A stretch of DNA of 6,948 nucleotides from Betaproteobacteria bacterium (GTDB taxonomy: Bacteria; Pseudomonadota; Gammaproteobacteria; Burkholderiales; Rhodocyclaceae), in the NCBI GenBank assembly GCA_028065725.1, contig JAPTVL010000551.1:1-6948 (forward strand). Direction: 5' to 3'. The notes under the pieces are model-generated. The model was not told the origin of the DNA, did no database searches, and was given only the letters and a program-made list of their open reading frames with translations. Every line of letters begins with the position of its first letter. Within the stretch, counting starts at the first letter, position 1. A program made the position numbers and the translations under genes. This document shows positions 1,069 through 6,799 of this stretch, piece by piece.

Positions 1069-1099
1069 ACTCACATAAGTGACATTTTGCGGTGCATAT

Positions 1100-1141
1100 T
1101 TAACCGTGGCGGTTGACTTTATAAACCGGCACGGTTAATAA
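1100..1141 (+). promoter_or_regulatory. Promoter with twin operators for the XRE-immA unit
   Basis: A promoter TTGACT (1113-1118), 17-bp spacer, TAATAA (1136-1141) lies 80 bp upstream of the XRE start. It is overlaid by two palindromes of the form AACCGnnnCGGTT, at 1102-1114 and 1124-1136. The centres (1108 and 1130) are 22 bp apart, two helical turns, so two dimers would bind the same face of the DNA. Together they also form a larger 15-bp inverted repeat with one mismatch. The left site overlaps the -35 and the right site abuts the -10, as expected for a repressor. Autorepression by the XRE protein is inferred. A further palindrome AGACC-GA-GGTCT lies at 1180-1191 in the 5' leader. Confidence 0.75.
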
Positions 1142-1220
1142 TGGTCTGCGTCCAATAACAATGGCCTGGCGCGGCGGGGAGACCGAGGTCTAATGAACGT
1201 ACAGCACAGGAGCGACAAAC

Positions 1221-1595
1221 ATGACAACGGATTTCGGAAGAAAGGTGCAGCAATTGCGTCAACTGGCAGGCATGACGTTGTTCGAGGTGGCGCAGAAGAT
1301 GAATCTGTCTTCGGCATTTCTGTCGGCGGTGGAAAATGGCCGAAAGCGCGTGCCCGACGACTTTGTCGAAAAGCTCGGGCGCGCTCTGCCGGAGGCCCGG
1401 ACCAACGCCGACACGCTGGAATCGATGGCCAATCAGGCGCGCCAGCAGGTGGTGGTGCCGCTGCCTAAGGCTAGCCGCCAGGATGCCGATCTGGCGACCG
1501 CCCTGGCGCGCAAGTTCAATACTCTATCGGACGATCAGAAGCGCTACATTCGCGCCATTCTCGACAACTACAACCCGGCCGCGGAGGACAAATGA
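1221..1595 (+). CDS. XRE-family helix-turn-helix regulator
   Basis: A 124-residue protein with an N-terminal Cro/CI-type helix-turn-helix: residues 6-40 carry the LRQLAGMTLFEVAQKMNLSSAFLSAVENGRK-type pattern, with the recognition helix around LSSAFLSAVENG. The C-terminal half (about 65-124) is helical and charged and may be the dimerisation or protease-target region. AGGAG at 1208-1212 lies 8 bases before the ATG, which fixes the start. The stop overlaps the next start as ATGA, so it is translationally coupled to the ImmA-like peptidase. XRE/COG2856 pairs are known both as ImmR-ImmA switches of integrative elements and as predicted toxin-antitoxin pairs; by analogy this protein represses its own promoter and is the likely substrate of its neighbour. 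The exact substrate and the signal cannot be read from sequence. Confidence 0.9.
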   Translation: MTTDFGRKVQQLRQLAGMTLFEVAQKMNLSSAFLSAVENGRKRVPDDFVEKLGRALPEARTNADTLESMANQARQQVVVPLPKASRQDADLATALARKFNTLSDDQKRYIRAILDNYNPAAEDK

Positions 1596-2146
1596 TCGAG
1601 CACCGCAGAAAGGACGGCGTGGTGGTGCCACCGATGAGCGAGGCGGCGATCGCTGGCCTGGCCGGCATGGTGCGCAGGACGGTGCAGCAGGATGGGGTGA
1701 AGCTGTTCCCCATCGTTCTGCTCTATGAGATGCTCTTCATCTTCGACGATGCGGCCCGTTTCGAGGTAATTGAGGACCATCAGATGGGGGACGACGACGC
1801 CCGGACCTATCCTGATCGCGGTCTGGTCCTGTTGCGCGAAAGCGTCTACAACAGCGCAGCGCGCGGCGAGGGTCGGCCGCGCTTTACCATGGCGCATGAG
1901 CTGGGTCATCTGATGCTGCATCGAGGCGTGTCGTTCAACCGCGTCAATCCCGAAGCGCCGCCCAAGATATTCCGCAACAGCGAATGGCAGAGCGACGTGT
2001 TTTCTTCGCATCTGCTGATGCCGACCCATCTGATCGCGGGTTACCGCGATCCGAAGGATGTGGCGCGGGATTTCGGCGTGTCCTATTGGGCAGCGGAAAT
2101 CCGCCTAGCCAAGATGAAGAAAGGGACCATGAAGCAAGTCTCATAG
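1592..2146 (+). CDS. ImmA/IrrE-type metallo-endopeptidase
   Basis: A 184-residue protein with the zinc-binding signature AHELGHLMLH (HELGH at residues 102-106; His102 and His106 as ligands, Glu103 as catalytic base). The downstream pattern NSEWQSDVFSSHLLMP (from residue 129) is the family's third-ligand region, with Glu131 as the candidate third zinc ligand. The length is normal for COG2856/ImmA-IrrE proteins and all key residues are present. Members cleave or inactivate the paired XRE repressor after a signal, for example ImmA on ImmR in ICEBs1. The ATG overlaps the XRE stop by ATGA, supporting a coupled pair. No signal peptide or membrane segment is seen, so it acts in the cytoplasm. The C-terminal segment (150-184) is basic and resembles the wing region of related proteins. 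Confidence 0.92.
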   Translation: MIEHRRKDGVVVPPMSEAAIAGLAGMVRRTVQQDGVKLFPIVLLYEMLFIFDDAARFEVIEDHQMGDDDARTYPDRGLVLLRESVYNSAARGEGRPRFTMAHELGHLMLHRGVSFNRVNPEAPPKIFRNSEWQSDVFSSHLLMPTHLIAGYRDPKDVARDFGVSYWAAEIRLAKMKKGTMKQVS

Positions 2147-2155
2147 TCCCTTTCA

Positions 2156-2268
2156 ACCGGAGATCCCTTGCCAGGCGAGGGGTCCGGTGGTGCACGGGAT
2201 GGACTCCATGCGTGTGAGAGCCATCAGTCTATCCCGTATCGCCGCCCTCCGGCAAGTCCTGCCTGGAG
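2156..2268 (+). ncRNA. Structured leader: three tandem hairpins before the 47-aa gene
   Basis: The 138-nt gap between immA and the small gene can fold into three hairpins in a row. Hairpin 1: ACCG (2156-2159), GATCCCTTG (2162-2170), loop CCAGG, CGAGGGGTC (2176-2184), CGGT (2185-2188), with a 2-nt bulge. Hairpin 2: ACGGGATGGACT (2194-2205) with AGTCTATCCCGT (2226-2237), 12 bp with one G-U and a 20-nt loop. Hairpin 3: CTCCGGCA (2247-2254) with TGCC-T-GGAG (2260-2268). The Shine-Dalgarno AGGAGG (2271-2276) follows at once. CCTCC at 2246-2250 can pair either with GGAG of hairpin 3 or with the SD itself, so two exclusive states are possible. I infer a regulatory 5' leader, or a processed small RNA. 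I recognise no known riboswitch class. Confidence 0.55.
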
Positions 2269-2284
2269 AAAGGAGGTGGTCGTC

Positions 2285-2428
2285 ATGGCAACACAGCAAC
2301 GTTTCAATGTTCCGGTTCCGGCAGGTATGAAGCTGATCTTTCGTCCGTTCATCACGTTGAAGAACGGTCGCAAGGTATGGGCTTGGCAACGCGGTAAACG
2401 GGCGTTTCCCCTGCTGGTAAAAATATAG
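2285..2428 (+). CDS. 47-aa small protein of the XRE-ImmA unit
   Basis: A short gene with an unusually good ribosome binding site: AAAGGAGG ending at 2276, 8 bases before the ATG. The product is basic, with no signal peptide or clear membrane segment. It contains FNVPVPAGMKLIFRPFITLK (residues 7-26), followed by NGRKVWAWQRGKRAFPLLVK. The pattern F-R-x-F-I-T-x-K-x-G, aromatic residues, then G-K-R-A-F-P looks like a compact beta fold. I recall similar short basic proteins in phages and near XRE genes but cannot name a family. It is the third gene of the plus-strand unit and lies behind the structured leader, so its dose appears to be controlled separately. It could be an effector, an anti-repressor or a nucleic-acid binder; function unknown. 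Confidence 0.75.
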   Translation: MATQQRFNVPVPAGMKLIFRPFITLKNGRKVWAWQRGKRAFPLLVKI

Positions 2429-3315: not shown

Positions 3316-3344
3316 ATGCTACCGTGATTTGGCTTTTCCGGCAA
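3316..3344 (-). promoter_or_regulatory. Internal promoter for the 75-aa/ART-like pair
   Basis: On the minus strand TTGCCG (3339-3344) and TAGCAT (3316-3321) are separated by exactly 17 bp. The predicted transcription start is near 3309, only about 4 bases before the ATG at 3305. The promoter lies inside the last codons of the protease gene. It would allow the 75-aa/ART-like pair to be expressed without the protease, and the missing Shine-Dalgarno of the 75-aa gene fits a leaderless message. Confidence 0.45.
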
Positions 3345-4281
3345 CGCGTGACCGGGGCGCTTGTGCTCGGGCGGGCGCCACGGGGGTGATCTTTGGGGCA
3401 ATGGAAAGAAGGTCGGTGTTTAGGTGGCGGATCTCAATGGTGCGGCTCAAGCCGGGGTTGAGCTGGGCCAGCACCAGGCCCAGGGCGTTTTCGTGGTTGT
3501 CCGGGCAACGTACCTGGTCGTTGTTGAACAATACCTCACGCGCCTCGCTGCGGTCGATCACGAAATCGTGGGTGGGGTACTCATAGACCAAGTTGTGCAA
3601 GGCCTCCTGTGACTGCAGAATGCTGGACCGGCTGTTCAGCCGCTCGCCATAGGCTTCGGTGATCAGCATGGTGCGTTGAACATAGCCCAGCCGCACCGGA
3701 TCCATATGGGCATACAGCCCAGAAAAAAGGCCTTGTGTCAATTGGCGCGCTGTCTCGCTGGCGAACTTGGTATTGAGCCGCTCCTTATGCCGCATGTCGG
3801 CGAGGAAATCCTTGAATGAATCTTTGGCATGGCGCTGTAGCCAGTCCATGGCCTGGATCATGTCCAAGCCCGAGTTGTATTCGAGGATTTCTTCCCGGTT
3901 AGCCAGTTGCACGTCCATCGGCCCCAATTCGCCGCGGTTGCCGATTACCACGGTGTTGAAGCCAATGGCCATCAGCGTGCCGGCGCTCTTGCAGGCGCAA
4001 AAAACATACAGGGTGAGCTGCTCGTAGTGGTGCCCGAGGGCGCGTGCAATACGGTAGGCGGCATGCGGGTCGCCGCCTAGGGTGTTGAGGAACAATCCTG
4101 CATGGCGGCGCTTGCCGGTGCTTAGGGCCTCGATCTTGTCGCACAGAAGCGTATAGCCCTGGCGGGTGATTTCACCGGCGTAGAACAACAGGTCTACATC
4201 GTCCCGCTCGATGATGTGGCGTGCGGCATCGCCCAGCTTGGTGCTGGGATCTAGCTCGGTACTGTCGGCCTCTTCGACCAT
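3319..4281 (-). CDS. SDH-type serine protease (ClpP/SppA-like fold)
   Basis: A 320-residue protein of the serine dehydrogenase proteinase type (SDH_sah), a ClpP/crotonase-fold peptidase related to SppA. Visible landmarks: FLNTLGGDP (64-72), the glycine-rich strand and oxyanion turn; CKSAGTLMA (97-105) with the candidate nucleophile Ser99 after Lys98; and GELGPMDVQL (117-126), the typical segment after the active-site helix. An alpha-helical region follows (140-240), and the tail 295-320 is a basic Ala/Pro/Arg-rich extension. No signal peptide or membrane anchor is seen, so it is cytoplasmic, unlike SppA. AAGGGA about 7 bases before the ATG is the ribosome site. It is the first gene of the minus-strand unit and overlaps the promoter of the following pair. 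The natural substrate is unknown; the 75-aa partner or a repressor is a candidate by context only. Confidence 0.87.
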   Translation of the reverse strand: MVEEADSTELDPSTKLGDAARHIIERDDVDLLFYAGEITRQGYTLLCDKIEALSTGKRRHAGLFLNTLGGDPHAAYRIARALGHHYEQLTLYVFCACKSAGTLMAIGFNTVVIGNRGELGPMDVQLANREEILEYNSGLDMIQAMDWLQRHAKDSFKDFLADMRHKERLNTKFASETARQLTQGLFSGLYAHMDPVRLGYVQRTMLITEAYGERLNSRSSILQSQEALHNLVYEYPTHDFVIDRSEAREVLFNNDQVRCPDNHENALGLVLAQLNPGLSRTIEIRHLNTDLLSIAPKITPVAPARAQAPRSRVAGKAKSR

Positions 4282-5277: not shown

Positions 5278-6651
5278 TCAGCGGGAAGTAATACCTTTCA
5301 GGCTTTCCTTGACCGCCCTCCGGTAGGTCTCCATCAAATCCGGCCCAGCCAGCGAGGCACTGTGCCGCCGTAGTACCTCATTGACCTTGCGCCGCCCCGG
5401 ATACACGCCTTGGGTCACCATGGCGCAAACCACTTCGGCGACCTTGTCGCGGTCGATCTGGGCGCGCGCCGCATTGGCCCGCCGGCACGCATCGGCATGC
5501 TTGCGCCGAATGGCCACGCACTCGTCCGGGAACCAGTACTTGAGGCAGGACCGCGTCAGGCCGACTTCCTTGGCCAATTCGGCCAGGGAACGCGTGTCGG
5601 CCGGATCGTTGGCGACGCTGGCGATCGTCTTGCCCAGCCGCCGTCGGTCGGCGGCATCGAGCCGAGGCCGCGCCGCCCGGCAGCGAACCTTGGCCGGCAG
5701 TCGCCGCGATGTTGGCACCGGACGCGCCGGGCCTGGCAGAAACATGGCCGCCGGCCGAATCCCCAGCCCGTAGCCGATCGCCAAGATCTGGGGCAGCGTC
5801 GGCCGCTCGCCTTGAGAAAGCCATCGCTTTGTCGCCCAGCGCGGCAGACCGATCCCCTCGCAGAACCGTGCCTGGTTGCCACCCGCCCGCTCGGCGATGG
5901 CTGCCGTCAGGAAGATGATGAAACGCCGGCGATCAGCGATACCGTCCAGTTCCGGCAGACGCGCGACCAGGTCGGCCAGGGATTCGGCCACCCACACCGC
6001 CATCGCAGTCGCCGGCGGATGTTCCGCCGGAGATCCCAGGTCCGCCAGCGACGCTCGGCAGTGGACGCAATGGCCGAGATCCGGATAGGTCGGCACGAAC
6101 GGTTCCGGCCTCCCGCAATGCCCGCATGCCTCGACCATCGGCCGGCGGTGCCGGTGACAGACGCGATAGAGATCCAGCGACCATACGAGCGGCCGCGTCG
6201 CGTCGGATCCGTCCCGGACCATCTCCGCCTGGCACTCGGGGCACCAGCGTGGCTTCCTGGCCAGGAGGCCTGCGCCGTTGTGGGGCAGCAGGTCGGCCAA
6301 CGGCAGCAGCGTCAGGTACCGGAGCGTCGAGACCGTGGTTAACTCGGTCATCAACGCCGCGAAGACCCTGGCGTGCGGCCCGATACCGTCTATGGTTCGA
6401 AGGTAGTTGGTGTAGCGCGCCACGAAGCGGAGCCGCTCCGGGTCGTCGGCGGCTTTGACCAGCTCCTTGCGGATCAGGCTGCGCGGATTGACCGCATGGG
6501 CGCGGGCAAGCCGTACCAGATAGGAGGTCATGCCTTCCACCCGTTCGCTGGCGAGGTCCGCCGGCGGCAGCGCATAGAGCCGACTGCGGGGGAGCTGCTC
6601 CGGCATTGCCAAATCGAGCGGCGACTCGGTGTCAGCGTTACGGAGCAGCAT
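5278..6651 (-). CDS. tniQ: TniQ/TnsD-family transposition target-selection protein
   Basis: A 457-residue TniQ-family protein. The N-terminal TniQ domain (about 25-160) contains GMTSYLVRLARAHAVNP (40-56), typical of the family start. It is followed by a zinc-binding region: WCPEC (Cys137, Cys140), VCHRHRR (Cys165, His166/168), CGHC (Cys176, Cys179) and HCVHC (Cys195, Cys198). The C-terminal half has two helix-turn-helix-like segments (about 262-300 and 355-385). TniQ/TnsD proteins bind DNA or a guide complex and direct a TnsB/TnsC-type transposase to its target. The ATG at 6651 is preferred over an upstream TTG (6666) because GGAGG lies 8 bases before it. No transposase or ATPase gene is in the window, so it is an orphan here or the edge of a larger element. 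Its 3' half has a decayed inverted copy at 765-1068. Confidence 0.88.
   Translation of the reverse strand: MLLRNADTESPLDLAMPEQLPRSRLYALPPADLASERVEGMTSYLVRLARAHAVNPRSLIRKELVKAADDPERLRFVARYTNYLRTIDGIGPHARVFAALMTELTTVSTLRYLTLLPLADLLPHNGAGLLARKPRWCPECQAEMVRDGSDATRPLVWSLDLYRVCHRHRRPMVEACGHCGRPEPFVPTYPDLGHCVHCRASLADLGSPAEHPPATAMAVWVAESLADLVARLPELDGIADRRRFIIFLTAAIAERAGGNQARFCEGIGLPRWATKRWLSQGERPTLPQILAIGYGLGIRPAAMFLPGPARPVPTSRRLPAKVRCRAARPRLDAADRRRLGKTIASVANDPADTRSLAELAKEVGLTRSCLKYWFPDECVAIRRKHADACRRANAARAQIDRDKVAEVVCAMVTQGVYPGRRKVNEVLRRHSASLAGPDLMETYRRAVKESLKGITSR
5372..5690. repeat. Inverted partner of the tniQ remnant
   Basis: This part of the intact tniQ gene is homologous, in inverted orientation, to 765-1068. 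The longest perfect block is 5383-5412 (30 bp), with a second at 5494-5511 (18 bp). Overall identity is clearly high but broken by substitutions and single-base gaps, so the copies diverged before or during decay of the left one. The pair encloses the XRE, ART-like, protease and 146-aa genes. Confidence 0.85.
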
Positions 6652-6799
6652 GGCGGAAGCCTCCAATGGGATCGCGAACCGGCAGGCGCTCGCCGACTGG
6701 TCTGCGATTTTTCAGCCGCTTTGACCCCTGGTCGATTTGTTCGGTGCTTACTTTGGGAGGACCGTTGTGCAACAGCACACTGATGTTTTCGATCTTCAT
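6638..6799 (-). CDS. Possible 53-aa ORF upstream of and overlapping tniQ
   Basis: An ATG at 6799 opens a 53-codon frame beginning MKIENISVLLHNGPPKVSTE and ending in a basic, Arg/Pro-rich stretch (residues 25-53). Its stop lies 14 bases inside the tniQ gene, an overlap usual for translational coupling. An AGGA is about 9 bases before the ATG, acceptable but not strong. I recognise no domain. It could be a small partner of TniQ, the rebuilt end of a lost gene, or a chance frame. Confidence 0.35.
   Translation of the reverse strand: MKIENISVLLHNGPPKVSTEQIDQGSKRLKNRRPVGERLPVRDPIGGFRHAAP
6660..6664 (-). promoter_or_regulatory. Ribosome binding site that fixes the tniQ start
   Basis: GGAGG on the minus strand, 8 bases before the ATG at 6651. 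A TTG further upstream (6666) overlaps this site and would have no ribosome site of its own, so the ATG is the better start. Confidence 0.65.

Follow-up and report, generated by a model that had tools for sequence, protein, structure and literature searches.

The window, the whole stretch of 6,948 nucleotides analysed here, carries on its + strand an XRE repressor gene, an ImmA-type metalloprotease gene, a 138-nt spacer and a gene for a 47-aa protein, in this order. Two genes on the - strand follow. The features outside the spacer are:

1095..1143, + strand: 20-nt inverted repeat overlapping a sigma70-like promoter match (1113-1142), read from the sequence
1221..1595, + strand: XRE (HTH) repressor gene, CapH-like (PF13560, 5.8e-10; PADLOC capH, 1.6e-11)
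1592..2146, + strand: ImmA/IrrE-type metalloprotease gene, CapP-like (PF06114, 4.9e-12; PADLOC capP, 8e-19)
2285..2428, + strand: 47-aa gene of a small-protein family, product predicted to have four strands and one short helix
2477-3109, - strand: gene read as ADP-ribosyltransferase-like (ART-like; phrog_14664, 1.5e-23; PD-T4-9_A, 6.9e-7)
3319-4281, - strand: ClpP-like SDH-type protease gene

HELGH in the ImmA protein of the window is retained across three aligned relatives. The inverted repeat at 1095-1143 is possibly the XRE operator and promoter of the operon. A Pfam search with the ART-like gene gave no match. The window also contains a TniQ-family gene (5278-6666, - strand) and, at 482-545 on the - strand, a sub-threshold match to a Betaproteobacteria toxic small RNA family (42.8 bits against a cut-off of 50, E 3.2e-6).

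Structure of the spacer

A sequence-only reading had described three consecutive strong stems in the spacer, at a density not expected by chance. This observation was confirmed, and all of its coordinates agree with the sequence. The stems fill 2147-2284. The first (2157-2188) consists of two blocks with approximately 14 pairs in all, the second (2194-2205/2226-2237) has 12 pairs and the third (2247-2268) has 8. The minimum free energy of the 138 nt was -66.3 kcal/mol, compared with -51.3 ± 4.1 kcal/mol for dinucleotide shuffles (z -3.64), of which 1 in 200 was as good; the opposite strand gave z -1.68, with 14 shuffles as good. A fourth stem, 2119-2132/2141-2154, which that reading had missed, overlaps the immA stop codon, and the range that includes it (2110-2300) gave z -5.42. 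The parts of the leader, all on the + strand, are:

2119..2154, + strand: hairpin H1 over the immA stop codon (inverted repeat)
2157..2162, + strand: segment a (CCGGAG), which can pair with 2247-2252 (stem listing)
2162..2184, + strand: hairpin H2, whose loop contains segment b (fold, stem listing)
2171..2177, + strand: segment b (CCAGGCG), loop side of the conserved loop-tail pairing
2194..2237, + strand: hairpin H3, 12 bp, loop with GTGTGAGAGC (fold, stem listing)
2247..2268, + strand: tail hairpin (CTCCGG/CTGGAG), alternative to the pairings of a and b
2260..2266, + strand: segment b-prime (TGCCTGG), partner of 2171-2177
2271..2276, + strand: Shine-Dalgarno sequence AGGAGG (sequence)

The window's own H1 has no good T-run; in L046 and L049, two phage relatives of the Bordetella type, the place of H1 is taken by a hairpin with a T-run after it. 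A scan of 32 of the 36 leaders, that of the window included, with Rfam 15 covariance models (E<=5 in the window, E<=1 elsewhere) gave no leader or riboswitch match. The only Rfam overlap with any scanned leader was on the opposite strand of L207 (ar35, 28.1 bits against a cut-off of 45, E 0.26).

Recurrence of the operon and the small protein

The order XRE, ImmA, spacer, small gene is found again in a Sterolibacterium MAG (L001) and in a genome of the same family (L009), whose leader is identical to that of a viral contig (L055/L204). L009 also has counterparts of the ART-like gene (51% identical) and of the protease gene, the latter judged by eye, in the same convergent order. The leader is of similar length in L001, L009/L204 and the phage loci. 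A viral scan with three ImmA proteins yielded 56 loci, and the small gene follows ImmA in 24 of them (20 of 47 distinct ImmA sequences), with 141-206 nt from the ImmA stop to the conserved core of the small gene. It is present in 20 of the 24 nearest ImmA relatives; the misses are L205, L206, L215 and L220, the last on a contig that ends there. An HTH protein lies directly upstream of ImmA in all 15 examined loci, which were drawn from the 24 in which the small gene follows, each with a Pfam HTH match, above the curated cut-off in 14 and below it in L224.

Two side observations concern the viral contigs. L205, L206 and L215 have Cys-containing small genes after ImmA instead of the 47-aa family. 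Type II hammerhead ribozymes, above the curated cut-off, are found in the ImmA-bearing contigs L213 (656-723) and L215 (508-581 and 1006-1066).

Bordetella phage vB_BaM-IFTN8 (L046) carries an XRE gene, a gene for a 208-aa protein, the leader and the small gene. No likeness of the 208-aa protein to ImmA was detectable, and the leader is kept behind it, suggesting that the RNA belongs with the small gene. Of 5,426 E. coli genomes, 34 contain a match to a 351-nt segment of L209 that comprises the end of immA, the leader and the small gene. Escherichia phage LLS (L261), whose record names E. coli K12 as its host, carries a copy that is 74.9% identical. In the one E. coli record inspected (L260), the module lies beside ssrA and phage genes. 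The E. coli copies are a related prophage version of the module.

Other searches covered genomes, contigs and phages. DNA searches of plasmids and phages returned nothing beyond the query's own record. The H3 pattern was matched in 1 of 300 genomes, already known, and a contig scan with a narrow pattern gave 3 loci; one viral scan gave no loci, and among the matches listed in two further pattern scans neither the protein HMM nor reading revealed a new leader. Genome searches by protein yielded 3 of 369 (one known and two weak, L007 and L008), 2 of 297 (one known and L009, new) and 7 of 399 (L059 and weak ones), and two smaller ones (6 and 4 genomes) nothing new. The genome search by ImmA yielded 3 of 249, of which L203 was new.

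The first search with the 47-aa protein returned 11 matches, itself included. With an alignment query including the copy of L009, 952 relatives were found at E<=0.01 among 2,504 candidates. Bordetella avium (P0017), Rubrivivax albus, an Ideonella and Tahibacter aquaticus are among the best 120 of the 952, which were listed. The protein gave no family match in Pfam, NCBIfam, PADLOC or PHROGs, and its predicted structure (mean pLDDT 86, pTM 0.51) had no match of note in a Foldseek search against the PDB (E at least 3.5). In three membrane proteins (L061, L062 and L064), which we take to resemble TerC, a C-terminal stretch matches the small-protein family.

Loop-tail pairing in the leaders

The sequence-only reading had proposed a switch in which CCTCC (2246-2250) pairs either within hairpin 3 or with AGGAGG (2271-2276). 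The 5-bp pairing with the Shine-Dalgarno sequence exists, but it is not the conserved feature. Shine-Dalgarno sequestration reached p<0.05 in 5 of 30 leaders (Fisher 0.0086), with p=0.375 in the window, and as a conserved switch it was rejected as weak over the relatives. Two exclusive states can be drawn, as had been claimed; the conserved alternative is, however, a pairing absent from that reading, between the H2 loop (2171-2177) and 2260-2266, the segment directly 5' of the Shine-Dalgarno sequence.

Stems were listed without preference in the five window-type leaders (window, L001, L009, L046 and L049), and this pairing was among the six best helices of each, at corresponding places: CCAGGCG/TGCCTGG in the window, CAGGCGA/TCGCCTG in L046 and L049, CCAAGCGA/TCGCTTGG in L001 and TCAGGTGAGG/CCTCGCCTGA in L009. 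Phage leaders of other sequence have a like pairing (L208, CGCTGT/ACAGCG; L214, TGCTGT/ACAGCA; L225, CGCTAT/ATAGCG; L213, CTGCCT/AGGCAG; L217, TGCTGCC/GGCAGCG; L231, CGCGGCCC/GGGCTGCG). The loop is complementary to 5-9 nt beside the Shine-Dalgarno sequence. In 16 leaders, whose loop and tail strings were picked by eye, the loops start at -100 to -123 and the tails lie at -16 to -31 (L203: -34 to -39), and the 107 loop-tail pairs comprise 101 Watson-Crick, 6 G-U and 0 A-C. The lowest-energy folds of L009, L213, L217 and L231 contain the contact as a long helix that encloses H3 and replaces the upstream hairpin, so that two exclusive states can be drawn for these leaders.

Covariation among homologous leaders was found in the E. 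coli-type group. The alignment (nine E. coli-type leaders and L213; 10 rows, 9 distinct) was made with a model and favours the model structure for four helices; in it, 90.4% of 270 cells were paired, compared with 77.7 ± 1.3 in shuffles and at most 43.8% with slid partners, and 18 of 30 pairs changed on both sides, compared with 5.7 ± 1.8 in shuffles (0 of 500 as high). The loop-tail helix lies outside the aligning model and is not favoured by it; it was 92.6% paired. L225 and L251 (first stem) and L213 (loop-tail) are one column out of register in this alignment. Counted by hand, six E. coli-type leaders had 36 of 36 loop-tail cells paired and two-sided change in 2 of 6 pairs; the five window-type leaders, among which L046 and L049 are near-duplicates, had 33 of 35 cells paired and two-sided change in 2 of 7 pairs. 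In the strand test, which disregarded 10 other mismatches as well as the misregistered cells, G-U occupied 13 cells and A-C 2, an excess that points to a sense-strand RNA. Recurrence and compensatory changes together support the conserved RNA leader before the small gene that the sequence-only reading had suggested.

When run on 62 sources, the covariance model of the nine E. coli-type leaders gave a match exactly on the L213 leader (E 0.0082) and another on part of the L203 leader (E 0.7). It did not reach the window's leader in these sources, and the kinship between the groups therefore rests on gene order and layout. Weak matches fell elsewhere in L054 (0.021), L238 (0.29) and L252 (0.38), and one in L251 (0.32) fell at its own leader but on the other strand. 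Fold stability varied: the z values of 14 leaders, as submitted, were -3.58 (window), -2.39, -3.04, -1.36, -1.49, -2.90, -4.59, -3.60, -2.89, -5.93, -0.53, -0.61, -1.41 and +0.47. The leaders of L231, L234 and L206 were no more stable than shuffles.

The preference of each loop for its own tail was analysed by permutation. Removal of 8 near-duplicates from 36 leaders left 28; a qualifying hairpin was lacking in 4 of these (L233, L056, L205 and L215), and the other 24 were tested. Their own loop-tail duplexes summed to -237.7 kcal/mol. Reversed tails gave -203.7 and permuted tails -186.8 ± 10.7, and none of 20,000 permutations reached the sum of the own duplexes. A subset of 17 leaders, namely 16 behind an ImmA gene (including L206, before a different small gene) and L046, gave z -5.2. 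Left out by judgement earlier were L002, L052, L007 and L008 (weak or without the module), and also L057 (cut off) and L061, L062 and L064 (inside long proteins). With L002, L052, L007 and L008 restored (27 leaders), z was -4.31 (0 of 20,000), and with the leaders of other small genes removed (26 leaders), -4.13 (2 of 20,000). One leader per look-alike group (20 leaders) gave z -2.58, with 159 of 20,000 permutations as good, and exclusion of the leaders that had served to derive the rule left 17, with z -2.00 and 544 of 20,000. These weaker scores on the thinned sets indicate that the own-tail preference holds and is modest across groups; it is carried largely by groups of look-alike leaders. 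When the hairpin was chosen by stability alone, the own tail ranked first of 36 for the window, L001, L217 and L231, and 22nd or worse for L207, L223, L053, L056, L215, L232, L233 and L234, with the rest between. L003, L048, L054 and L223 had no good loop-tail fit. The automatic choice of hairpin differed from the reading by eye in L009, L207, L232 and L234, and these rows were kept in the counts.

The H3 loop motif GCGTGTGAGARCC was also tried as a candidate, since a similar hairpin lies on the opposite strand before small genes in L016, L017, L018, L021, L025 and L034. By a rough estimate its matches are not above chance, the loop is not retained in L009 and L046, and the candidate was set aside. 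As an observation in its own right, a hairpin with the loop GCTCTCACACG and a changing stem lies in those six loci shortly before small phage gene starts.

Proposed function and comparison with known systems

On balance, we favor the interpretation that 2157-2284 is the 5' leader of the 47-aa gene and acts as a loop-tail (kissing or pseudoknot) riboregulator of a small phage protein. The structured leader probably controls whether the small protein is made. It would consist of H2, H3 and the tail hairpin, with the H2 loop pairing with the tail 5' of the Shine-Dalgarno sequence in a kissing or pseudoknot contact, or in a long helix enclosing H3. By analogy with CapP/CapH, ImmA may cleave XRE upon DNA damage and so de-repress the operon, in which the 47-aa gene would be the last gene of a phage-type operon. 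The contact beside the ribosome-binding site would lower initiation on the small gene, and the small protein would be made only once a factor, ribosomes leaving immA or the small protein itself disrupts the contact.

The main rival is trans action of the C4/IsrK kind, in which termination or processing of the transcript, at the upstream hairpins or beyond them, would release the loop to act on the read-through tail or on that of an incoming related phage, as an immunity code. With its loop complementary to a site close to the ribosome-binding site of a small gene that shares its transcript, the leader resembles IsrK/orf45, as described in the available part of that report (PMC4825925), and the layout also resembles C4 in the part available for it (PMC5320573). 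The hairpin with a T-run at this place in L046 and L049 fits such an RNA, as do loops that vary between phages and mostly pair best with their own tail. However, H1 of the window is without a good T-run and no C4 match was obtained in the window (E<=5) or in 38 loci (E<=1), and we regard trans action as possible but doubtful. The T-run of the L046 hairpin, the terminator-like H1 and the leaders no more stable than shuffles could also reflect an ordinary terminator at the end of immA, followed by chance stems. The covariation counts and the permutation tests argue against this; the pairs concerned in the window are not those of H1, and such an explanation is very improbable.

A small overlapping peptide encoded by the leader would agree with the 49-aa protein that RefSeq annotates over the leader in E. 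coli record L260, with a 56-aa Cys-containing ORF open in L009, and with the window spacer being open in the frame of the small gene. The open frames differ among relatives and base pairing is retained. L225 and L251, whose leaders are almost identical, differ by an indel of a single base, which also speaks against a peptide; we consider a coding role highly improbable. A Cys-rich leader peptide (L009, L001) was likewise rejected, its frames not being conserved. The sequence-only reading had further raised a type III-like module, in which the hairpins would be the processed RNA antitoxin of the 47-aa protein. The toxin of type III toxin-antitoxin systems is an endoribonuclease of the ToxN kind. 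The RNA does adjoin a small gene in a phage-type operon, but 2147-2284 holds no tandem repeat family (the lone direct repeat, D2, has its second copy in immA), and the 47-aa protein lacks a family match in Pfam, NCBIfam, PADLOC and PHROGs, with Foldseek E values of at least 3.5 against the PDB. We consider this proposal extremely improbable.

The loop-tail riboregulator could be extended to an RNA lock-and-key diversified by temperate phages, with a matching pair of loop and tail peculiar to each phage lineage as its code. The small protein would be released only if this code were disrupted, or met by a match in trans, and the RNA would form a two-key gate with the damage-cleaved repressor. 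We think this extension unlikely; if it is true, repressor cleavage and RNA recognition together would constitute an immunity, exclusion or abortive response. What had been an unexplained spacer can now be described as an RNA element that is supported by covariation and found repeatedly in a similar genetic setting. The element also connects regulators of the ImmA/CapP type with an RNA layer and with a widespread small protein. Since the element occurs in E. coli genomes and in a K-12 phage, its function can be tested in laboratory strains. No description of this leader was found among the titles and abstract openings returned from the open-licence literature (subscription journals were outside the scope of the search).

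The window shares with CapH/CapP an HTH protein and an ImmA-type protease encoded next to a defence-type gene, the two being adjacent and recognized by PADLOC (capH, 1.6e-11; capP, 8e-19). According to the accessible portion of a report on that system, CapP cleaves CapH on ssDNA (PMC13373217). The system differs in that it controls transcription of the adjacent operon, and the same portion mentions neither a structured leader nor a small gene (PMC13373217).

The leader also has a hairpin loop complementary to a downstream ribosome-binding site, as does C4, and this is a resemblance only. C4 is an RNase P-processed RNA of approximately 77 nt that acts in trans. Its Rfam model (RF01695) gave no match in the window (E<=5) or in the 38 loci (E<=1; 6, 10, 12 and 10). 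The C4 antisense RNA of P1/P7 has hairpin loops complementary to the ribosome-binding region, in the text available to us (PMC5320573). It differs by its two loops, a' and b', and by its other genes, whereas the leader of the window has one main loop-tail contact.

IsrK of the Gifsy-1 prophage (isrK-orf45-anrP) is, like the leader studied here, a prophage RNA upstream of a small ORF (PMC4825925). It is likened by layout and not by sequence kinship; it differs in that IsrK pairs with an approximately 30-nt orf45 sequence and leads to an antiterminator, and the available part of the report describes no XRE-ImmA operon (PMC4825925). In that part, alternative structures of the RNA and ORF region, which occur in terminated and read-through forms, decide translation (PMC4825925). 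IsrK is thus an example, within the same excerpt, of a prophage RNA that switches translation by alternative pairing and can itself be switched in trans (PMC4825925).
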